Source of the DNA: Actinomycetota bacterium
GTDB taxonomy: Bacteria > Actinomycetota > Actinomycetes > Mycobacteriales > Mycobacteriaceae
Direction: 5' to 3'
Assembly (NCBI GenBank): GCA_018268465.1
Contig: JAFDWN010000008.1
Coordinates: forward strand, 276,359-340,358
Length of the DNA: 64,000 nt
A program made the position numbers and the translations under genes. Each line of letters begins with the position of its first letter. Position 1 is the first letter of the stretch. Positions 48,674 through 57,216 of the stretch are shown in pieces. The notes below the pieces were generated by a model. The model had not been told where the DNA came from. It saw only the letters and a list, made by a program, of their open reading frames with translations, and did no database searches.

Positions 48674-49378
48674 ATGGTGACGCCGTCCGGCGGACAGAAC
48701 CGCAGCGGCGAGGCGACCAGACCTGCATCGCCGGTGCGCCTCGTGCTGGTCGACGACCACGAGATGGTCATCGAGGGTCTCAAGGCGATGCTGGCGGCGT
48801 TCGCCGACCGGGTCACCGTGGTGGGTCAGGCGGTGGGCGCCGAACGGGCGCTGGGGGTCATCGACGTCCTGCAACCCGACATCGTGCTGTGTGACGTGCG
48901 CATGCAGGGGTCCAGCGGGCTGGATCTGTGTCTGGCCCTGCGGGAACGGCGTCCCGGCCAGAAAGTGGTCATGCTGTCGGTGTACGACGACGAGCAATAC
49001 CTGTTCCAGGCATTGCGGGTGGGCGCGTCGGGATACCTGTTGAAGAGCATCAGCAGCGACGACCTCGTCCGGCAGCTCGAATCCGTGCACAGCGGCGCCA
49101 CCGCGATCGACCCGGGGATGGCGGCGCGCGCGGTCGACACCGCCGCACGTCTGCAGCGCGACGAGTTCTGGCCGGGCGCCCGGCAGGGCCTGACGCAGCG
49201 CGAGAGCGAGATCCTGTCCTACGTGGTCAGCGGCCTGTCCAACCGCGGTATCGCCAACAAACTGGTCATCGGCGACGAGACGGTCAAGAGCCATCTCCGG
49301 TCGATCTACCGCAAACTCGGTGTCAGTGACCGTACGGGTGCGGTCGCGACCGCTCTGCGCGAAGGGATCTACCGGTGA
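48674..49378 (+). CDS. NarL/FixJ-family response regulator
   Basis: The 234-aa protein has a receiver domain (LVLVDDHEMVIEGLKAMLAAF, phospho-acceptor Asp in IVLCDVRMQGSSGLDL, VVMLSVYDDEQYL, ASGYLLKSISSDDLV). A LuxR-type helix-turn-helix follows (LTQRESEILSYVVSGLSNRGIANKLVIGDETVKSHLRSIYRKLGVSDRTGAVATALREGI). Its stop overlaps the GTG start of the GAF sensor kinase by 4 bp, so the two are a translationally coupled two-component system. DNA targets are unknown. Confidence 0.94.
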   Translation: MVTPSGGQNRSGEATRPASPVRLVLVDDHEMVIEGLKAMLAAFADRVTVVGQAVGAERALGVIDVLQPDIVLCDVRMQGSSGLDLCLALRERRPGQKVVMLSVYDDEQYLFQALRVGASGYLLKSISSDDLVRQLESVHSGATAIDPGMAARAVDTAARLQRDEFWPGARQGLTQRESEILSYVVSGLSNRGIANKLVIGDETVKSHLRSIYRKLGVSDRTGAVATALREGIYR

Positions 49379-50637
49379 AACACCAACGAGGATCCGGTGC
49401 GGGAGCGCCCGGGCGGCCCCCTGCCAGCGCGGTGCGCGATCTAGGCCAGTACGCGCTGGCGGCCGACCGCGAGCTGGCGCTGCTGCGGGAGCTGATCCAG
49501 GCGGCGTCCAGCGGACCCGGCGTGGAGCCGCTGGCGGCCGCCGCGGCGCGCATGATCACCGTCGCCACCGCCACCGATGTGTGTTTCGTGCACGTCCTCG
49601 ACGACAGCGACCGGTCGCTGACGCTGGCCGGCGCCACACCGCCCTTCGACAGCGAGGTCGGCAAGATCCGTCTGCCGCTGGGGCAGGGCATCTCGGGCTG
49701 GGTCGCCAATCACCGCGAGCCGGTCGTGATCAGCCACAACAAGGAATCCGATCCCCGGTACATGCCGTTCCAGTCGCTGCGCGGTTCGGATTTCACCTCG
49801 ATGGTGTCGGTGCCCATGGAGACGGATCCCGGCGGGCTGGTCGGGGTGCTCAACGTGCACACCGTGCACCGCCGCGAATTCGCCGACCGCGACGTCGAGC
49901 TGCTCCTGGTGATCGGCAGGCTTATCGCCGGGGCGCTGCACCAGGCCCGGCTGCACCGCCAGCTGGTGGCCCGCGAACGCGCCCACGAGAACTTCGTCGA
50001 GCAGGTCATCCAGGCCCAGGAGATTGAACGCCGCCGGCTGGCCGCCGACATCCACGACGGCATCTCGCAGCGCCTGATCACGCTGTCCTACCGGCTCGAC
50101 GCCGCAGCCCGCGCGATCGGCGACCCCGACGCCGTCGCCGAGCAACTCGGCAAGGCCCGCGAGTTGGTGGATCTGACGCTGCAGGAGGCGCGCGCGGCCA
50201 TCGGTGGGCTGCGCCCGCCCGTACTCGACGATCTCGGCCTGGCCGGCGGGCTGGCCAGCCTGGCCAGGTCGATCCCGCAGGTCCAAATCGACCTCGACCT
50301 CGCGGACACCCGGCTGCCCGACCACATCGAGCTGGCGCTGTACCGCATCGCCCAGGAATGCCTGCAGAACGTGGTCAAACACGCGGGTGCGACGACGGCG
50401 CGGCTCACTTTCGCCGCGGACGCCGAGACCGCGCGGCTGGACATCGTCGACGACGGCGTCGGCTTCGACACTCTCGAGCATCCGCTGGGCAGCGACGAGA
50501 TGGGTGGCTACGGACTGTTGTCGATGGCCGAGCGCGCCGAGATCGTCGGAGGTCGGCTCAACATCCGGTCCCGTCCGGGGGCGGGCACCGCCGTCACCGC
50601 CACCATTCCCCTGCCGTCGCCGGCCGAGCAGGCGTAG
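49375..50637 (+). CDS. GAF-domain sensor histidine kinase (HisKA_3/NarX class)
   Basis: The 420-aa protein has a GAF domain at about residues 40-190 (AARMITVATATDVCFVHVLDDSDRSLTLAGATPP, KIRLPLGQGISGWVANHREPVVI). A dimerisation helix with the phospho-His follows in EIERRRLAADIHDGISQRLITLSYRLDAAAR. The HATPase_c domain has ELALYRIAQECLQNVVKHAGATTARL, DIVDDGVGFD and GGYGLLSMAERAEIVGGRL. There is no transmembrane segment, so it senses a cytosolic signal. GAF kinases of this kind bind heme or other ligands, but no heme-ligating motif is evident. The partner is the regulator encoded directly upstream. Confidence 0.93.
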   Translation: MKHQRGSGAGAPGRPPASAVRDLGQYALAADRELALLRELIQAASSGPGVEPLAAAAARMITVATATDVCFVHVLDDSDRSLTLAGATPPFDSEVGKIRLPLGQGISGWVANHREPVVISHNKESDPRYMPFQSLRGSDFTSMVSVPMETDPGGLVGVLNVHTVHRREFADRDVELLLVIGRLIAGALHQARLHRQLVARERAHENFVEQVIQAQEIERRRLAADIHDGISQRLITLSYRLDAAARAIGDPDAVAEQLGKARELVDLTLQEARAAIGGLRPPVLDDLGLAGGLASLARSIPQVQIDLDLADTRLPDHIELALYRIAQECLQNVVKHAGATTARLTFAADAETARLDIVDDGVGFDTLEHPLGSDEMGGYGLLSMAERAEIVGGRLNIRSRPGAGTAVTATIPLPSPAEQA

Positions 50638-50707: not shown

Positions 50708-51223
50708 TCAGTAGTCTCCGGCGTGCCGGCGCAACGTGTCGATCGACGTCACGAGCGCCCGCGATTCCTCGTCGGACATCCCGATGTCGGCGAACACCTG
50801 CGCGTTGAGGGTGACCGTCGCCTCCTCGACGGTGGCGCGGCCCAACTCGGTGATGCTCACCAGCGTGGTGCGCCCGTCCGTCGGGTGCGGAAGTCGCTCG
50901 ACCAGGCGGCTGGCCTCCAGCCGCCGGATGGCGTGGGTGACGCTGGTGACGTGGACCTGCAGCCGGTCGGACGCCTTGGTGATGGGCAGCGCACCGCTGC
51001 GGCTGAACGCCAGCAGCCGCAGCAGTTCGAAACGGGAGAAGGTCAGGTCGTAGGGCCGCAGGGCCGCCTCGACGCGGGCCAGCAGGATCTGGTGGGCCCG
51101 CATCACCGAGGTCACGGCGACCATCCCTTCGGCGACGTCAGCCCATCCGGCGTTCTCCCAATTGGCCCGCGCGAGCGCGATCGGGTCGCGGTGGTCGTCG
51201 CTGGGCGGCGGTTGCGTGGGCAC
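50708..51223 (-). CDS. MarR-family transcriptional regulator
   Basis: The 171-aa protein has a MarR winged helix-turn-helix: LTFSRFELLRLLAFSRSGALPITKASDRLQVHVTSVTHAIRRLEASRLVERLPHPTDGRTTLVSITELG, where DGRTTLVSIT is the wing. The gene is the last of a leftward run that includes a PLP aminotransferase 41 bp upstream, a KAS-III-like enzyme, an SRPBCC protein and a ThDP enzyme. Regulators of this type often bind the pathway's small phenolic or lipophilic product, so feedback control is a reasonable guess. Confidence 0.9.
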   Translation of the reverse strand: MPTQPPPSDDHRDPIALARANWENAGWADVAEGMVAVTSVMRAHQILLARVEAALRPYDLTFSRFELLRLLAFSRSGALPITKASDRLQVHVTSVTHAIRRLEASRLVERLPHPTDGRTTLVSITELGRATVEEATVTLNAQVFADIGMSDEESRALVTSIDTLRRHAGDY

Positions 51224-51264
51224 GCCTCTTCATACCGCATCGCGTCCCCACGACCGCCGCGTTC

Positions 51265-52296
51265 TCAGCGCATCGCCGACACCGCCGCCAGCACCGCCCG
51301 GGTCGACTGCCTGCTGCCCACAGTGATCCGTACCCCGCCGTCGGCGTAGGTGCGCACCTGCAATCCGGTGTGGTCGAACACCTCCTGCCAGGACCCGCCG
51401 CACGCCGGGAGATAGACGAAGTTGGCGTGACCGTCGGTGCTGTACACACCCATCGAGCGCAACCGCATGGTGAGGTAACGCCGTTCCGCCGAGATCATCC
51501 GGATGCGTTGCCGCAGTTGACTTTCGGCGTCATAGGATGCCGCCACCGCGACGAGGCTGGTGATGCCGAGCCCGAACGGGAGCTGCATGGTCCACAGCTG
51601 GCGTCCGAGCTCGGGCGCGCAGAAACCGTAGCCGATGCGCATCCCGGCCAGTCCGTAGGCTTTCGAGAACGTCCGTAGGACCACGACATTCGGGTACCTG
51701 CGCACCAGCGCGGGTGCGTCGATCCGATGTTCCGGCGCCAGGAACTCGACGTACGCCTCGTCGAGCAACACCACCGTGTCCGGTGCGACGCGCTGCAGGA
51801 ACCGTTCGATGTCGGCGGCGGCTTCCACGGTTCCGGTGGGATTGTGCGGCCGGCACACCACCACCGCGCGGGCCCCGTCGGCGGCCTCGGCCATGGCTTC
51901 CAGATCGTGGTGTCCGTGCGCGTCGAGCGGCACCGTGACCGGGGCCAGGCGCGCCATCTGCGCGAAGATCGGGTAACCGTCGAACGTCGGCGTGCTCATG
52001 ACCATGGTGTCACCGGGACTGGTCACCGCATGCAGCACCTGCAGGATCACCCCCGTCGCACCGGAGCCGATCACCACCTGTTCGCTGCGCACACCGACGC
52101 GGTCGGCGATCAACGACCGCAGCCGGTGCGGCAGGAACTCCGGATACCTGTTCGCGGCGTCCACCGAGGCGATCAGCGCCGCCCGCACCGATGGCAACGG
52201 CGGGAAGGGGTTCTCGTTGAGCGACAGCGCCAACGGGTTCACCGACTCGGGCAGTGCACCGACGGCGTCGGTGAGCACCTGCCTGGGCGAGGCCAT
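51265..52296 (-). CDS. PLP-dependent aminotransferase, HisC/Pat-like (fold type I)
   Basis: The 343-aa enzyme shows PLALSLNENPFPPLPSVRAALI (substrate-entry N), VVIGSGATGVILQVLHAV, CRPHNPTGTVEAA, VVLLDEAYVEF and the PLP-binding Lys in LRTFSKAYGLAGMRIGYGF, ending with GVRITVGSR. That layout is shared by histidinol-phosphate and aromatic-amino-acid aminotransferases. Its ATG shares one base with the stop of the KAS-III gene (TGATG), so the two are coupled. Housekeeping hisC normally sits in the his operon, so this copy is more likely a pathway-specific enzyme for an unknown keto compound made by the neighbouring enzymes. Confidence 0.87.
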   Translation of the reverse strand: MASPRQVLTDAVGALPESVNPLALSLNENPFPPLPSVRAALIASVDAANRYPEFLPHRLRSLIADRVGVRSEQVVIGSGATGVILQVLHAVTSPGDTMVMSTPTFDGYPIFAQMARLAPVTVPLDAHGHHDLEAMAEAADGARAVVVCRPHNPTGTVEAAADIERFLQRVAPDTVVLLDEAYVEFLAPEHRIDAPALVRRYPNVVVLRTFSKAYGLAGMRIGYGFCAPELGRQLWTMQLPFGLGITSLVAVAASYDAESQLRQRIRMISAERRYLTMRLRSMGVYSTDGHANFVYLPACGGSWQEVFDHTGLQVRTYADGGVRITVGSRQSTRAVLAAVSAMR

Positions 52297-53306
52297 CAGC
52301 CCCGACCGCCCCAGCGGATCGCGGCCGCGCCGGCGAAATCACCCGCATGCGCGAACGCCGCCATCAGCACCACATCGCCCGCCTTCACCTGGCCGTCGTC
52401 GATGGCGGCCTCGAAGTTGACCGGTATGCCGACCGCGAACAGGTTCCCGCATTCGTGGAACGTGTCGCGGTGCCGCTCACGCGGGATCTCCAGCGCTTCG
52501 TTCCAGTTACGCAGAAACACCCGGTTGGGCTGGTTGGTGACGAGCAGGTCGACGTCCTTGGACTTCATCCCGATCCGGTCGCACACGGCCAGCGCGACTT
52601 CGGGTACCTCCCGGTTGCCCCGGGCGAGCACCTTCATGATCTTGGCCTCGTTGAAACTGACGTAGCCCTCGCCGAGGCCCGCCTGCCACCACAGCCGCGG
52701 CGGATCCGCGGTCAGCGTCATATCTCCGGCGTACTCGCCGTAGTAGCGGCATTCGATGTCGAGGATGGGCGAGCTGTCCGAGACCGTCAGCAATCCCACC
52801 GCCGCGCCGTCACCCGGCACCGACGACTGAGCCAGCGTACGGACGTGCTCCTGCTCGAAGATCTTTCCGCCGGCATTCTGTGCGCAGGCGATCAACGCCG
52901 TGCGGCCCGCGCCGGACGCCAACAGCTGCCTGGCCACCTTCATCATCTGCACAAATGCGGCACAGCCGCCGTTGTGCACGTCGATGATGTACTCCGGGTC
53001 CATGCCGAGTCGGTGGGCCACCTCGCCGCCGGAACCGACGATGGGCAGATCGGGCATCTGCGAATGTGTCAGCAGCACATCGACATCGGCGAGTACATCG
53101 GCCCCGTGACGCTGCGCGAGCTCCTGGGCGGCGCGCACCATCATGTCGGCGTTGCTCTCTTCGAACGCGGCGTGGTGCCGATACTCCGGCGCCCGGAACA
53201 TCAGGTTCTCCCGCAGGTCGTCGGTACCCGCGAACTTGGCATACCACTCGGCGGGTACGCGCTTCTCCGGCAGATAGGTTGCGACATCGATCAGGCTGAC
53301 GGTCAT
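52296..53306 (-). CDS. 3-oxoacyl-ACP synthase III-like enzyme with altered catalytic triad
   Basis: The 336-aa protein has the thiolase fold of KAS III: VSLIDVATYLPEKRVPAEW, the nucleophile Cys in IDVHNGGCAAFVQMMKVARQLLASG, GDGAAVGLLTV, and the Asn of HECGNLFAVGIPVNFEAAI (FabH GNTS position). Where FabH has the catalytic His in HQAN, this protein has NQPNRVFLRNW, so the triad reads Cys-Asn-Asn. Decarboxylative condensation normally needs that His. The enzyme may instead transfer an acyl group, like esterifying KAS-III relatives. It sits 7 bp after the SRPBCC gene and overlaps the aminotransferase start. Confidence 0.88.
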   Translation of the reverse strand: MTVSLIDVATYLPEKRVPAEWYAKFAGTDDLRENLMFRAPEYRHHAAFEESNADMMVRAAQELAQRHGADVLADVDVLLTHSQMPDLPIVGSGGEVAHRLGMDPEYIIDVHNGGCAAFVQMMKVARQLLASGAGRTALIACAQNAGGKIFEQEHVRTLAQSSVPGDGAAVGLLTVSDSSPILDIECRYYGEYAGDMTLTADPPRLWWQAGLGEGYVSFNEAKIMKVLARGNREVPEVALAVCDRIGMKSKDVDLLVTNQPNRVFLRNWNEALEIPRERHRDTFHECGNLFAVGIPVNFEAAIDDGQVKAGDVVLMAAFAHAGDFAGAAAIRWGGRG

Positions 53307-53313
53307 CGGGTAC

Positions 53314-53991
53314 TCACTTCATCCAGTCCGGGGTCACCGGAAGTCCGTTGCGGTGGCGGTACTCCGCGATCGCCTTGAGGTTCTTCAGCTCCAGCAGATG
53401 GCCGGCGCCGAACATGTCCCAGAAATCCCCCACCCATACCGGCCGCTTGGGCGGCGCCGTCTCGGGATAGGGATTGTGGTCGTAGAACGGGTGGTGGCAG
53501 TTGGTCCACAGGACCACCGATCCTGGCTTGTCGAAGACCACCTGCGCGTCGACGACCCGCATCAGATAGATCATCCACAGATGTTTGCCCTGGTCCCAGG
53601 CGCAGTGGTAGTCCACCGTCATGGATTCGCGGTGCGCCACCGTGCGGGTATAGATCTCGGTCTCCGAACCGAGCCGGTCATAGGCCAGCCACAGCCCGGG
53701 CTCGTCGGTCGGGGTGAATCCCCGCAGACTGTAGGTCCATTCCTCCAGGCAGCGGGTGTCGGTCAGGTAGTCGAAGAGTTCCTCGGGCGGACAGTCGACG
53801 TAGGTGTTGACGGTGCAGAACTCGCCGAACACCTCTTCGTGCGGATACACCGACCGCATCATCTCGAGGATGACCGGAGTCGCCGCCTCGCGGGGTGAAG
53901 TCTCGATCCGGACCAGGCCTTCGATCGGTTCGGTGGTTCCTACTGACTGCAGCCGGTGTGCAGCGATGTCATCAAGCGCGGGCAACGACAT
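53314..53991 (-). CDS. SRPBCC/START-like protein
   Basis: From ATG 53991 the product is 225 aa. The start was chosen because the upstream extension to 54141 would run antiparallel through the C-terminal codons of the ThDP gene and carries no similarity. The core FGEFCTVNTYVDCPPEELFDYLTDTRCLEEWTYSLRGFTPTDEPGLWLAYDRLGSETEIYTRTVAHRESMTVDYHCAWDQ resembles polyketide cyclase or coenzyme Q-binding folds with a deep hydrophobic pocket. The C-terminus is aromatic (HHPFYDHNPYPETAPPKRPVW). Such proteins bind lipids or cyclise polyketides. Its start overlaps the end of the ThDP gene by 20 bp. Confidence 0.78.
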   Translation of the reverse strand: MSLPALDDIAAHRLQSVGTTEPIEGLVRIETSPREAATPVILEMMRSVYPHEEVFGEFCTVNTYVDCPPEELFDYLTDTRCLEEWTYSLRGFTPTDEPGLWLAYDRLGSETEIYTRTVAHRESMTVDYHCAWDQGKHLWMIYLMRVVDAQVVFDKPGSVVLWTNCHHPFYDHNPYPETAPPKRPVWVGDFWDMFGAGHLLELKNLKAIAEYRHRNGLPVTPDWMK

Positions 53992-55801
53992 TGTCGTGGG
54001 TCTCCTTCTGGATTGCTGAGTGATCACGGGGTCTGCTGAGAAAGGCCGCGAACGGGGGTATTTCGTCGGCCGAGCACTGGACGCTGACCACCGAGGGCCC
54101 GTCCGTCGCCAGCGCGGTGGCCAACGCCGCGGGCAACTCACCGATCTCGTCGACGTCCACCGCCGTCAAGCCGGGGAACATCGCCGCCAGTCCGGCGCCC
54201 AGACGACTCGGGCCGAACCGGTTGTAGCTGTACAGATCGTGGTAGAACAGCTGCTCGCGGGTGACGCACATGGCGTGCGCGTGGTTGTCGAACAGCAGGT
54301 ACGTCACCGGAAGCCGGTACTGCACCGCGGTGTGAATCTCCATGCCGTGCATGAAGAACGACCCGTCCCCGGCAATGACGACGGTGCGCGGGCTGGGCAG
54401 CGCGCTCATCGGGGCCCCATTGCTCTTCGCGCAAGCGCTCATCGGGGCCCCATTGCTCTTCGCGCAAGCGCTCATCGGGGCCCCATTGCTCTTCGCGCAA
54501 GCGCTCATCGCGCGCCCGAAGGCGACGCCCAGACCTGCCCCGAAGCTGTACCCCATCCCGCCCATGCCGAGCGCCACGATGAAGCGGCCGTCACGGCGCG
54601 CAGGCAGATGGTGGATCGCCGAGGCGCCGATGTTCCCCGCGTCGACGACGATGTCCACACCGTCGGGCAGCGCGGCATCGACCACCGCCATGGCGTCGCG
54701 GTAGCGCACACCCGGACCCGTATGAGCCGGGGGCCGCAACGCCGTGCGCGCCACCGTGTCGGGCACTCGCACGTGCGCCGGCCGGCCGCTGCCCGACAGC
54801 GCGCGCACCAACAACTCCAGCGACCCACGCAGATCGCGGGTGTGGACGTGGGTGCACGGCACGTACGGCGGTGCCGAACCGATCGAAAAGGTCGGTACCG
54901 CAGCCAGTGCCGCATCCAGCCCGGCACGCGCGGTGACCGACAGACGTGTCCCGACCACCAGGCACAGGGCGCTCTCGGCGACGGCGTCCACGACGCCGGG
55001 GTGTCCCATCACACCGGTCACCCCGAGCGCCGACGACGACCCCAGGCCGGGCGTGCCCGCAGCATCCTTGGCGTCGGGGACGGTGGCCACCCTGGCGCGC
55101 AGCAGCGCGCGCAGGCGTTCGAGTTCGGCGCGGGCGTCGTCGCGGACCACCTGTTCGCCGGCGAGGATGGTGATCGGCCCGTCGGCCTGTCGCAGCGCCC
55201 GCGCGATGACGTGCGGCGCTTCCAGCGGGACGGACCTGAGCACGCCGTTGTGGCCGTGACCGTTGAGGCTTCCGAGTACGGCCTGCTGAACGTCCTTGGG
55301 CAGCAACAGAACCGCGGGGCCGCCACCGCGTGCGGCGGAAATCGCCTGCGGTAGTGCGGAAATGATGTCCTGCGGCTCGGTAACCCGCCGGCAGTAGACC
55401 GACACCGCGGAGAACAGCGCCACGCCGTCCAGGGCGCCGTTGCGACCGCTGGTGTCCTGGAAGGCACCGAGGCCGTCCAGGTTCGTCGGGGGCTGCCCGA
55501 TCAACGCCAGGACGGGCACCCGGCTGGCGAACGCCTCCCCCAGGCCGGGGACGGTGTTGAGTGCGCCGCCGCCCGACGTCGCCGCGACCACCCCGAGCCC
55601 TGCCCCGCTGCGGCTGAACCCGTCCGCCATGGCGGCGGCCGAGAACTCGTGCTTGGCTAGGACCGCGGTGATATCGCTGCGGAAATACGCTGCGTCGTAA
55701 AGATCTTCGATGTTGGCGCCGTCGACACCGAAGATGTGGTCGATACCGCTGTGCGCCAGGTGGCCGACGATGTAGTCGACCACCCTGTTCCTGCTGACCA
55801 T
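53972..55801 (-). CDS. Thiamine-diphosphate-dependent enzyme (acetolactate synthase/benzoylformate decarboxylase family) with repeat insertion
   Basis: From ATG 55801 the product is 609 aa. The N-terminal Pyr domain has VVDYIVGHLAHSGIDHIFGVDGANIEDLYDA and the catalytic Glu in LAKHEFSAAAMADGFSRSG. The central domain follows. The C-terminal PP domain carries GDGSFFMHGMEIHTAVQYRLPVTYLLFDNHAH, the Mg-ThDP motif, though with N-H instead of the usual N-N at its end. Between GAGLGVAFGRA and SPRTVVIAGDG lie three copies of MSACAKSNGAP encoded by 33-bp DNA repeats, just before the cofactor motif. The family decarboxylates 2-keto acids and often joins the product to a second carbonyl. It is the first gene of the operon and has a SigL-like promoter 54 bp upstream. 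Confidence 0.87.
   Translation of the reverse strand: MVSRNRVVDYIVGHLAHSGIDHIFGVDGANIEDLYDAAYFRSDITAVLAKHEFSAAAMADGFSRSGAGLGVVAATSGGGALNTVPGLGEAFASRVPVLALIGQPPTNLDGLGAFQDTSGRNGALDGVALFSAVSVYCRRVTEPQDIISALPQAISAARGGGPAVLLLPKDVQQAVLGSLNGHGHNGVLRSVPLEAPHVIARALRQADGPITILAGEQVVRDDARAELERLRALLRARVATVPDAKDAAGTPGLGSSSALGVTGVMGHPGVVDAVAESALCLVVGTRLSVTARAGLDAALAAVPTFSIGSAPPYVPCTHVHTRDLRGSLELLVRALSGSGRPAHVRVPDTVARTALRPPAHTGPGVRYRDAMAVVDAALPDGVDIVVDAGNIGASAIHHLPARRDGRFIVALGMGGMGYSFGAGLGVAFGRAMSACAKSNGAPMSACAKSNGAPMSACAKSNGAPMSALPSPRTVVIAGDGSFFMHGMEIHTAVQYRLPVTYLLFDNHAHAMCVTREQLFYHDLYSYNRFGPSRLGAGLAAMFPGLTAVDVDEIGELPAALATALATDGPSVVSVQCSADEIPPFAAFLSRPRDHSAIQKETHDNVVARA
54402..54512 (-). repeat. Three tandem 33-bp repeats inside the ThDP enzyme gene
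   Basis: Units start at 54402, 54435 and 54468, with a partial fourth at 54501. On the coding strand each contains GATGAGCGCTTGCGCGAAGAG and encodes MSACAKSNGAP. The 18-nt core GAGCGCTTGCGCGAAGAG is the same as in the repeats at 34947-35042 and 35601-35652. Because 33 is a multiple of three the insert keeps the frame. Confidence 0.92.
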
Positions 55802-55861
55802 AGCCCACCTGTCGTGCGATCCTCGCGGGAGAGCTTGTCGCACCTCCACGCCCCTGCCAGT

Positions 55862-55889
55862 GACACGACTCGCGACGGAGTTGGGTTCA
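55862..55889 (-). promoter_or_regulatory. SigL-type promoter upstream of the ThDP operon
   Basis: Reading leftward, TGAACC (55889-55884) and CGTGTC (55867-55862) are separated by 16 bp, and the ThDP gene start lies 60 bp further on. This matches the published mycobacterial SigL consensus (TGAACC then CGTgtc, 16-18 bp apart) and the architecture upstream of sigL itself in this window. The match was found by eye. Confidence 0.75.
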
Positions 55890-55903: not shown

Positions 55904-56659
55904 TCACAGGTTCTTTTCCAGCAGCACCTTTCCGGTGTCCGGACCGGGGTCGAGGGAAACGAGTTGCACAGAAGCGATTTCGCTCTTGGGCATGGGGGTG
56001 TTTCCGCTCGGCAGCGCCGTCGCGCCCTGCACCCCCAACCAGGTCGCGATCTCTGAGCGGCTGCCGTCGCGGCCGACCACCACCATGCCCAGCTGGGTCG
56101 GTGGCATGTCGGCCGACCCACCCGACCACTGGCCGTACGTGCAGGCCATGTCGATCCGCGTGCCCCATGCGAAATCGGTGAGGCTGATCGTGGCGTTGAT
56201 CGGCGTGTCGGCGACCTTGGTCATCTCGAGTTGCTGAGCCGTCACCTGCTGGGAGCTGCCGTGCAGCCCGAGAACCTCGGGCCGGATGGCGACCACCAGC
56301 CCCACCGCCAGCAGGGCTGCGGCCAGGCCGACGGCGGCCGACGTCAGCCAGCGCGACCGGCGCCGGCGCCATCGCACCTTGTCCAGCACCGACTGCAGCA
56401 CCTCGGGGCGCAGCGGCGGGGGCTCGGGCTGTTTCTCGTCGAGCTCATTCACCTCGTCGAGGGTGAGCATCGCCAGCAGCGGGGGGATCCCGCTGAGTTC
56501 TGCCACCGCCGAGCGGCAGCTGTTGCAGCGCTGCAGATGCGCTTCGTATTCGCGACGTTCGGTACTGGACAGCGAGCCGAGAACGTATGCGGCATCCCAG
56601 GTCGAATACCGATCGCCGTCCAACACATCACCACCTTGGGGTACACCGAATTGTGTCAT
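55904..56659 (-). CDS. rslA: Anti-sigma factor RslA (zinc-binding, single-span)
   Basis: The 251-aa protein has an N-terminal zinc-binding anti-sigma domain with HxxxCxxC in YEAHLQRCNSCRSAVAEL. One transmembrane helix (RWLTSAAVGLAAALLAVGLVVAIRP, near residue 115) and an extracytoplasmic domain (INATISLTDFAWGTRIDMACTYGQW) follow. In M. tuberculosis the RslA zinc site is redox-sensitive and releases SigL on oxidation. The ATG overlaps the sigL stop (ATGA), so the pair is made together. Synteny with Rv0736 next to sigL, map, adk and secY supports the name. Confidence 0.93.
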   Translation of the reverse strand: MTQFGVPQGGDVLDGDRYSTWDAAYVLGSLSSTERREYEAHLQRCNSCRSAVAELSGIPPLLAMLTLDEVNELDEKQPEPPPLRPEVLQSVLDKVRWRRRRSRWLTSAAVGLAAALLAVGLVVAIRPEVLGLHGSSQQVTAQQLEMTKVADTPINATISLTDFAWGTRIDMACTYGQWSGGSADMPPTQLGMVVVGRDGSRSEIATWLGVQGATALPSGNTPMPKSEIASVQLVSLDPGPDTGKVLLEKNL

Positions 56660-57171
56660 CGTGTCACCCCCATCTCCTGCAGATTCAGTCGTAATGCGCG
56701 CACCGCATAGTGCAGACGCGATTTCACCGTTCCCTCCGGGATCTCCAGGTCCGCGGCGATCTGGCTGGTGGTCCAGCCCTGGTAATACGCCCGCTTGACC
56801 ACGGCACGGTGTTCGTCGGAGAGTTGGCTGAGCGCGGTGAGCAGAAGGAGCCGGTCCAGGGCGGAATCCACGTCGTCGGGTCCGGGCCGGTCGGCGACCT
56901 GCTCCATCTCCGGTGTCGAGGACTCGTTGCGAAACCGGGCGCTCCGCCGCTCATCGATGATGAGATTGCGCGCCACCGTGAACAGCCAGGCCCGAACGGA
57001 GCGTTCGCCGTCGGCCGTCACATTGGGATGTCGCCAGGCACGCAGGAGCGTCTCCTGTACGACGTCTTCCGCGCGCGCCTGGTCGCCCGTCAACCGCAGG
57101 GCGTAACGCCAGAGCGCCGCGGCGTGCTCGTCGTACAGCACCCGCATCATGGCGGCCTCCGGATCATCCAT
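56656..57171 (-). CDS. sigL: ECF RNA polymerase sigma factor SigL
   Basis: From ATG 57171 (GGAGG 6 nt upstream; a TTG 6 nt earlier is less likely) the product is 171 aa. Region 2 is VLYDEHAAALWRYALRLTGDQARAEDVVQETLLRAWRH, with ARAWLFTVARNLIIDERRSARF. Region 4 is LSQLSDEHRAVVKRAYYQGWTTSQIAADLEIPEGTVKSRLHYAVRALRLNLQ. The sequence is close to M. tuberculosis SigL throughout. A TGAACC-N16-CGTAAC promoter just upstream suggests autoregulation. The known regulon in M. tuberculosis includes pks genes and a secreted thioredoxin-like protein. Confidence 0.95.
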   Translation of the reverse strand: MDDPEAAMMRVLYDEHAAALWRYALRLTGDQARAEDVVQETLLRAWRHPNVTADGERSVRAWLFTVARNLIIDERRSARFRNESSTPEMEQVADRPGPDDVDSALDRLLLLTALSQLSDEHRAVVKRAYYQGWTTSQIAADLEIPEGTVKSRLHYAVRALRLNLQEMGVTR

Positions 57172-57188
57172 TTCCAACCTCCGCCTTT

Positions 57189-57216
57189 GTTACGACGTTG
57201 GCGGTGATCCGGTTCA
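57189..57216 (-). promoter_or_regulatory. SigL-type autoregulatory promoter upstream of sigL
   Basis: Reading leftward, TGAACC (57216-57211) and CGTAAC (57194-57189) have a 16-bp spacer and end 17 bp before the sigL start. The spacing is the same as in the ThDP-operon promoter. It fits the SigL consensus, and sigL autoregulation is known in M. tuberculosis. Confidence 0.7.

Follow-up and report, generated by a model that had tools for sequence, protein, structure and literature searches.

Carquinostatin A and neocarazostatin A are Streptomyces products whose biosynthesis involves an aminotransferase, a thiamine diphosphate (ThDP)-dependent enzyme, a beta-ketoacyl-acyl carrier protein synthase III (KAS III)-like enzyme and the SRPBCC-fold cyclase CqsB2, which is 80% identical to NzsI (PMC7466098). 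The review of these pathways does not mention mycobacteria (PMC7466098), and no paper ascribing carbazole-type quinones or such a cassette to mycobacteria was found in the open-access literature, as judged by search listings. Here, we describe a five-gene operon located behind the genes for the sigma factor SigL and its anti-sigma factor RslA in a 64,000-nucleotide stretch of mycobacterial DNA (assembly GCA_018268465.1, contig JAFDWN010000008.1, positions 276,359 to 340,358 of the forward strand), hereafter called the window. This operon contains one enzyme of each of the four types and is likely to be the core cassette for a fused-ring aromatic ortho-quinone, similar to the CqsB7-B3-B1-B2 steps of carquinostatin biosynthesis, placed very probably under SigL control. 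The enzyme set itself is already known; what appears to be new is that it is recognized in mycobacteria, where it stands behind a redox sigma factor and is spread across the genus.

Operon enzymes and proposed pathway

A preliminary description of this DNA, made from the sequence alone, reported genes that overlap or nearly touch and run leftward from a TGAACC-N16-CGTGTC promoter, with which both the coordinates and the sequence agree. It also stated that no described pathway with this set was known to its author, a view that the four shared enzyme types of carquinostatin and neocarazostatin biosynthesis do not support (PMC7466098). On the minus strand, sigL-rslA, preceded by adk and map, is followed by the genes for the ThDP enzyme, the SRPBCC protein, the KAS III-like enzyme, the aminotransferase and the MarR regulator, and the junctions between these five measure -20, +7, -1 and +41 nt in this order.

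55862-55889, minus strand: SigL-type promoter of the operon, TGAACC-CAACTCCGTCGCGAGT-CGTGTC (N16 spacer), from the sequence
53972-55801, minus strand: 609-aa ThDP-dependent enzyme (ATG start) with a proposed CqsB3/NzsH-like role as alpha-hydroxy-beta-keto acid (HKA) synthase
54403-54501, minus strand: in-frame 33-bp repeat, present in three identical copies within the ThDP gene and lacking in 11 aligned relatives
53314-53991, minus strand: SRPBCC/Bet v1-fold protein, 225 aa, CqsB2-family ring-forming cyclase
52296-53306, minus strand: KAS III-like condensing enzyme, 336 aa, with Pfam ACP_syn_III domains, proposed CqsB1/NzsJ-like role
51265-52296, minus strand: class I/II pyridoxal phosphate-dependent aminotransferase, 343 aa, proposed CqsB7-like deamination of an aromatic amino acid
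50708-51223, minus strand: MarR-family regulator (Pfam MarR), probable Rv0737 ortholog by position

A profile search of the PDB gave CqsB2 as the sole significant match of the SRPBCC protein, and CqsB2 is also its top fold match, 6 Z units ahead (999 chains aligned). The CqsB2 positions Glu105, Tyr144, Tyr172, His206 and Glu209 read D, Y, Y, H and E in 124/124 homologues; all five active-site positions are kept in the family, the first as a conservative Glu-to-Asp change, and the family consensus is identical to CqsB2 at 86/190 aligned positions. By profile and fold match, the protein is therefore a member of the ring-forming CqsB2 family and not the lipid-pocket protein that it had been called; a generic lipid-binding role was abandoned once the CqsB2 match emerged. 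No Pfam or NCBIfam family scored above cut-off, and a match to ScyC was weak (E=3.6e-4, residues 62-139 only), far below the curated cut-off.

In the KAS III-like family, C115, N258 and N288 are present in 134/134 sequences, and N258 occupies the His position in FabH alignments, so that the canonical Cys-His-Asn triad of FabH is absent. With KAS III domains, the Cys and Asn kept and His changed to Asn, the enzyme is likened to CqsB1/NzsJ by type. As a free beta-keto acid readily loses CO2, the His of FabH may be dispensable here. Identity, tree and active-site analyses excluded loci L059, L060, L061 and L158, matches with internal stops and matches below 75% of the query length (L-numbers denote loci and G-numbers genomes, G000 being the window's own assembly).

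Among solved structures, BbmA and CsmA (8x3x, 8x3z) are closest to the ThDP enzyme in sequence, and BbmA, deposited as a 'ThDP-dependent HKA synthase', is also nearest by fold, with 27% identity over the modelled fold; BbmA is likened here by name and deposited title only and CsmA by name alone. The ThDP fold and catalytic Glu are present, and the likeness to CqsB3/NzsH is one of enzyme type. Three repeat units (MSACAKSNGAP) are inserted before the GDG cofactor motif, within a low-confidence segment of the model (455-482) that is flanked by well-modelled elements. The repeat occurs nowhere else in its own genome, and the idea of a dispersed genus element was rejected, as the exact 28-base core was found only here (1/148 genomes, none of the 147 others).

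The aminotransferase has the SKAYGLAG motif with lysine 212. Its best PDB match is a 'putative phenylalanine aminotransferase' (4r2n, E=7e-56), followed by HisC (E=1e-40), and it is likened to CqsB7 by enzyme type. In carquinostatin biosynthesis, the aminotransferase acts first and removes an amino group (PMC7466098); the aminated acyl compound suggested in the preliminary description thus runs in the wrong direction.

By analogy with the Streptomyces pathways, the aminotransferase would convert an aromatic amino acid to a 2-keto acid, from which the ThDP enzyme could act as HKA synthase; Trp is the most likely substrate of the aminotransferase, with Phe or Tyr as the alternatives. The Cys of the KAS III-like enzyme would then be loaded with an acyl group from acyl carrier protein (ACP) or coenzyme A (CoA) and coupled to the acid of the preceding step with loss of CO2, and such a decarboxylative coupling would explain the loss of the His that helps decarboxylate malonyl thioesters. 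Finally, the CqsB2-family protein may close and aromatize the new ring without a cofactor, giving a catechol that would oxidize to the ortho-quinone. These substrates, reactions and product are proposed from the analogy, whereas family membership and active-site conservation are direct observations, as are the conserved promoter motif and the synteny described below.

SigL-type promoter and probable redox control

The operon promoter lies between rslA and the ATG of the ThDP gene (55801), filling the short gap after rslA. This ATG is the most likely start, since the GTG at 55849 in the list of open reading frames is only 12 nt beyond the -10 element and thus improbable. The sigL-rslA genes and their own promoter are as follows.

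55904-56659, minus strand: rslA, encoding a zinc anti-sigma factor that has a hydrophobic stretch and the motif HxxxCxxC (H41-LQR-CNSC), identified by this motif and by PDB 3hug_B (E=8.8e-20)
56656-57177, minus strand: sigL, extracytoplasmic function (ECF) sigma factor (PDB 6dv9_F SigL, E=2.2e-74; PRK09645 above cut-off)
57189-57216, minus strand: SigL-type promoter of sigL, TGAACC-N16-CGTAAC, from the sequence

By the sigma-L numbering in the excerpted text of PMC6372665, transcription of the operon is predicted to start near 55853. Its -10 element (T-12 G-11 T C-9 A-8 C-7) differs only at the last base from the sigma-L consensus TGN(C/A)AG given there, in which G is preferred at -11. The preliminary description had assigned the same architecture to the sigL promoter; TGAACC-N16-CGT is indeed common to both, but sigL has CGTAAC, with A at -11 where sigma-L prefers G.

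Conservation of this motif was scored in 68 of 80 named loci, these 80 being the best among 534 relatives (of the 12 dropped, 10 had no ThDP gene in reach and 2 lay at an edge), by searching for TGAAC[C/T]-N16/17-CG[T/A]NT from 251 bp before to 30 bp after the expected start. It was present in 38/39 loci with sigL or rslA upstream (0.09 expected from first-order Markov shuffles) and in 7/7 copies linked to marR, giving 45/46 for the sigL locus, and the sole linked locus without it reads TGAACG-N16-CGTGTC. Only 1/22 unlinked copies had the motif (Fisher p=2.5e-15, species not being independent); "unlinked" means that no sigL or rslA upstream and no marR downstream was seen in the fetched stretch (up to 6 kb on each side), so that short contigs may be misfiled. 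At 44 of the 45 sites (one identical copy omitted), the 16-base spacer carries 0.42 bits per column and the hexamers 2.0 and 1.9 bits, the latter values being partly forced by the search pattern; the low spacer value indicates that the flanking sequence has diverged around the motif. The pattern used to judge membership of the SigL regulon, TGAACC-N16/17-CGT, precedes the window operon. In an earlier locus set, this strict form was found before 14/32 ThDP genes including that of the window (0.16 expected), 13 of the 14 being at a sigL or marR locus (the exception is L032), and upstream of sigL in 19/24 loci (0.09 expected). Beyond the genus, L148 and L150, from another genus of the same family, carry TGAACC-N16-CGTATC upstream of the ThDP gene, at a distance of 79-85 bp; in L148, sigL-rslA is found about 2.7 kb from it. 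L147 and L151 have loose matches farther off.

Published expression data point in the same direction. On day 1 of treatment of M. avium subsp. paratuberculosis with rhodanine D157070, MAP4208-4211, annotated as ilvB, 'transcriptional regulator', fabH and pat, rose 6.9-, 7.4-, 7.0- and 6.2-fold alongside sigL, rslA, mpt53 and pks10, and the authors suggested SigL-related control in 2009 (excerpts of PMC2806251). With the conserved motif, the synteny with sigL and this co-induction, the placement under SigL made in the preliminary description is supported, and the operon is very probably SigL-dependent. RslA of M. tuberculosis binds zinc, retains SigL under reducing conditions and responds to oxidation in vitro (excerpted text of PMC2877774), and RslA of the window keeps the HxxxCxxC motif. 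Oxidation of this zinc site may release SigL, from which transcription of the operon would follow.

A genome-wide prediction of the SigL regulon gave 38 motif matches versus 10 in a reversed control, and no regulon is claimed. Among the 30 matches with loci, 13 were apparently intergenic, 6 of these less than 200 bp from a plausible gene start. One locus (L082; G000 contig 12, 9447-9474) has an exact TGAACC-N16-CGTGTC 35 nt before a 376-aa open frame without a Pfam match at E<=1e-5, which is a possible further SigL target. The same assembly encodes a second SigL-like ECF sigma factor (contig 22, 196325-196825, 62% identical). In L050, L056-L058 and L062, an RPE65-type oxygenase gene (Pfam on L056) lies between a short sigL-like piece and the operon-adjacent sigL, and in L044, L045, L050 and L069, FMO-like and FAD_binding_4 genes, possibly for tailoring enzymes, are located near sigL/rslA upstream of the ThDP gene.

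Distribution, linkage and loss

The genus sample, "genus" meaning Mycobacterium/Mycolicibacterium according to the named relatives, comprised 148 genomes, with cut-offs of E<=1e-20 for KAS, E<=1e-40 for sigL and E<=1e-30 for marR. A KAS match, broken and partial copies included, was detected in 100/148 genomes and sigL in 131/148, and 97 genomes had both (Fisher p=1e-5, uncorrected for kinship). The scattering of the genes in related genomes that the preliminary description had named as contrary evidence did not occur: in 84 of the 96 placeable genomes, KAS is found on the strand of sigL, no more than 12 kb downstream of it (in the remaining one of the 97, G084, the sigL match is weak and has no listed place). 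Named species with sigL-linked copies include M. sphagni, M. wolinskyi and M. canariasense.

In sigL-bearing genomes that lack KAS, marR starts 722-889 bp after sigL in 28/34, leaving space for rslA only; the other six have a sigL-marR distance of 1.1, 1.5 or 2.5 kb or 2.6 Mb, or no contig common to both. The position of marR was typed in 129 of the 141 genomes that have it, the other 12 having no sigL. From published gene positions, M. tuberculosis, with Rv0735-Rv0736 and Rv0737 near sigL, fits this empty arrangement. In addition, two 3.3-Mb genomes (L060 and G075) have broken KAS remains only and no sigL match at E<=1e-40, and L060 shows fragments of the other three operon genes beside map and adk. 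Another locus (L059) retains sigL-rslA, a ThDP fragment near a KAS fragment, a near-full-length aminotransferase match and marR, an internal deletion having removed the cyclase. The linkage, the empty sigL-marR loci and the broken remains point to presence of the operon in an ancestor and later losses. It is conceivable, at a probability that we place a little short of even, that SigL/RslA originated as a redox switch dedicated to one mycobacterial pathway, which makes an ortho-quinone of carbazole or naphthalene type, and that the M. tuberculosis lineage lost the pathway and kept an orphan sigL-rslA-Rv0737 with a remnant regulon; the quinone, formed under oxidative stress, would act as a radical scavenger or a redox cycler.

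At larger scale, the KAS family was found in 33/298 genomes and 7/76 genera of the order sample (E<=1e-40). A phylum sample gave the cyclase in 14/396 genomes at E<=1e-15, and one of these 14 belongs to a different family within the class. Outside the genus, ThDP enzyme, cyclase and KAS are together in 10/13 fetched loci (L149 is split, L155 lacks the cyclase and L158 is fragmented).

The marR gene is present in 141/148 genus genomes independently of KAS (Fisher p=1.0), so that MarR, previously counted as a pathway member, is a locus neighbor instead. By numbering, MSMEG_1488-1491 of M. smegmatis may be the operon; MSMEG_1488 was reported to be up-regulated by two G-quadruplex ligands. Rv0737/Ms_1492 was reported to bind the sigL-rslA promoter, the Ms_1488 promoter fragment being an unbound control for Rv0737 (PMC13002591).

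The operon of the window itself looks like a mosaic, since its KAS gene is nearest to unlinked copies whereas its ThDP and aminotransferase genes are nearest to sigL-linked ones. KAS is 83.2% identical to L194 and 82.6% to L031, both unlinked, versus at most 72.4% to linked copies, and groups in the KAS tree with 22 unlinked rows (SH-like approximate likelihood ratio, SH-aLRT, 98). The ThDP enzyme (72.7% versus at most 68.3% for unlinked relatives) falls within a set of linked rows (SH-aLRT 100), and the aminotransferase shows 82.6% versus 72.0%. Both trees were built by a quick method, from 67/134 KAS and 61/113 ThDP rows, and the linked/unlinked labels need 5 and 4 changes on them, respectively, with single unlinked rows in linked clades (L068; L065). 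In the sigL operon, a KAS gene from an unlinked cluster type has apparently taken the place of the original one; sigL-linked and unlinked clusters probably share chemistry at the KAS step.

Alternative interpretations

Several points weigh against a SigL-controlled, carquinostatin-like cassette. Direct sequence comparison covers CqsB2 only, with CqsB1, CqsB3 and CqsB7 likened by enzyme type; genes for an ACP, a prenyltransferase or other tailoring enzymes are missing from the window operon, and a dedicated ACP (CqsB6/NzsE) was absent from the five genes and five neighbors scanned. The lack of an ACP gene is not fatal, because 3-hydroxybutyryl-CoA is also accepted in the Streptomyces pathway (PMC7466098). 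The KAS gene derives from another cluster, and the 33-bp x3 insertion might impair the ThDP enzyme. As to regulation, the SigL motif is absent at the comparable place in 10/12 scanned copies outside the genus, and MAP4208-4211 are equated with the window operon by gene order and annotation, not by alignment. If Ms_1488 is the M. smegmatis ThDP gene, its promoter was left unbound by MarR.

The nearest relative of the aminotransferase is annotated for Phe, not Trp, and this also favors the same cassette chemistry acting on phenylpyruvate or 4-hydroxyphenylpyruvate to yield a naphthalene-type 1,2-quinone instead of a carbazole, as does the fact that over half of the aligned positions differ between CqsB2 and the cyclase family. 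We regard this as unlikely, though it deserves more weight than the readings that follow, as, in the literature found, an indole intermediate is the substrate of the only characterized enzymes of the cyclase family (PMC7466098). The substitution of His by Asn in the KAS III-like enzyme fits a KAS III-like acyltransferase too. An O-acyltransferase in this place would make the product an acylated acyloin, as in the formation of xenocyloins (XclB/XclC), which reportedly begins with the ThDP enzyme XclA. KAS III-like acyltransferases, CerJ and Pau29 among them, are reported to be marked by loss of the first catalytic His, and the same source counts XclB/XclC as ester-forming condensation-like enzymes (PMC4425429), so the invariant N258 is compatible with a xenocyloin-type set. 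However, the condensing site retains its Cys and Asn, and the invariant cyclase that accompanies the enzyme would be left without a role; we consider this reading improbable, and the xenocyloin and paulomycin analogies were retained as a rival only.

A small aminated acyl signal or redox-stress metabolite with the aminotransferase acting last, as the preliminary description proposed, is permitted in principle by the enzyme classes and shares the supported SigL control. It seems very improbable in view of the ring-forming SRPBCC protein and of the formation of a keto acid by the aminotransferase of the related pathway (PMC7466098), and in 14/22 unlinked cassettes the 3.5 kb downstream contain no aminotransferase of this family. 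There is also little likelihood that the operon is decaying in this strain, with a ThDP enzyme inactivated by a repeat whose core is unique to this genome among 148 and a KAS gene transplanted from the unlinked clade while a second cassette (L031) exists in the assembly: all frames are open, catalytic residues are kept, the promoter is intact, and the insertion is in frame and modelled between well-modelled elements. The ortho-quinone cassette is the interpretation that we prefer.

Related clusters and neighboring genes

The source assembly (6.9 Mb, 72 contigs, completeness 99.87, contamination 5.86) contains a second ThDP-cyclase-KAS-aminotransferase cassette (L031, G000 contig 59), followed by cytochrome P450 and O-methyltransferase genes and without sigL in the stretch; it likely belongs to the same cell as the window, although the estimated contamination makes this less than sure. 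Expanded clusters in L034-L040 comprise ThDP enzyme, cyclase, KAS, ACP, AMP ligase, MmpL, O-methyltransferase, a further methyltransferase (L035-L040) and P450 with a divergent aminotransferase (Pfam calls from one representative run per gene), and look like a source of a mycobacterial aromatic or lipid-linked natural product. A gene of the ACP cluster follows KAS in 11 fetched unlinked loci (Pfam on one). In another family of the order, L156 and L157 join a beta-branching set to the ring-forming one: the cassette stands with two ACPs, a 3-hydroxy-3-methylglutaryl-CoA synthase-like enzyme, two enoyl-CoA hydratases, two ketosynthase genes, a cupin, an O-methyltransferase, an aminotransferase and a radical SAM gene (Pfam on L157). 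Adjacent to the MarR gene of the window, and convergent with it, are paired genes for a GAF histidine kinase and a LuxR-type response regulator (48674-50637, plus strand); the families of this pair recur in 14/55 long loci mapped.

Comparison with known systems

If the proposal is correct, many mycobacteria would make an undescribed aromatic quinone, and a widespread metabolite class would adjoin, and be driven by, a well-studied redox sigma factor. SigL would have a pathway as its natural partner, and the puzzling regulon that it controls in M. tuberculosis could be read as a remnant. Enzymes that can be tested come from two families: the CqsB2 family, which works without a cofactor, and a KAS III-like family in which Cys-Asn-Asn replaces Cys-His-Asn.

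Scytonemin biosynthesis offers a partial likeness, since ScyA couples aromatic keto acids with ThDP, whereas no KAS III step is described for ScyA/ScyC in the excerpted text (PMC9822442). The Mycobacterium SigL regulon (sigL-rslA, pks10, mpt53-Rv2877c and Rv1138c-Rv1139c) shares the TGAACC-N16-CGTG promoter with the window operon and its targets were co-induced with MAP4208-4211, and no carbazole-type pathway is described for it in the excerpts of its literature (PMC2806251). Carquinostatin A and neocarazostatin A (CqsB7-B3-B1-B2; NzsH-J-I) are the closest system, with the same four enzyme types and the active-site positions of CqsB2 kept in a window-type cyclase that is about 45% identical to it, whereas the window operon has no ACP, KAS III (CqsB5), prenyltransferase or P450 and stands behind a redox ECF sigma factor.

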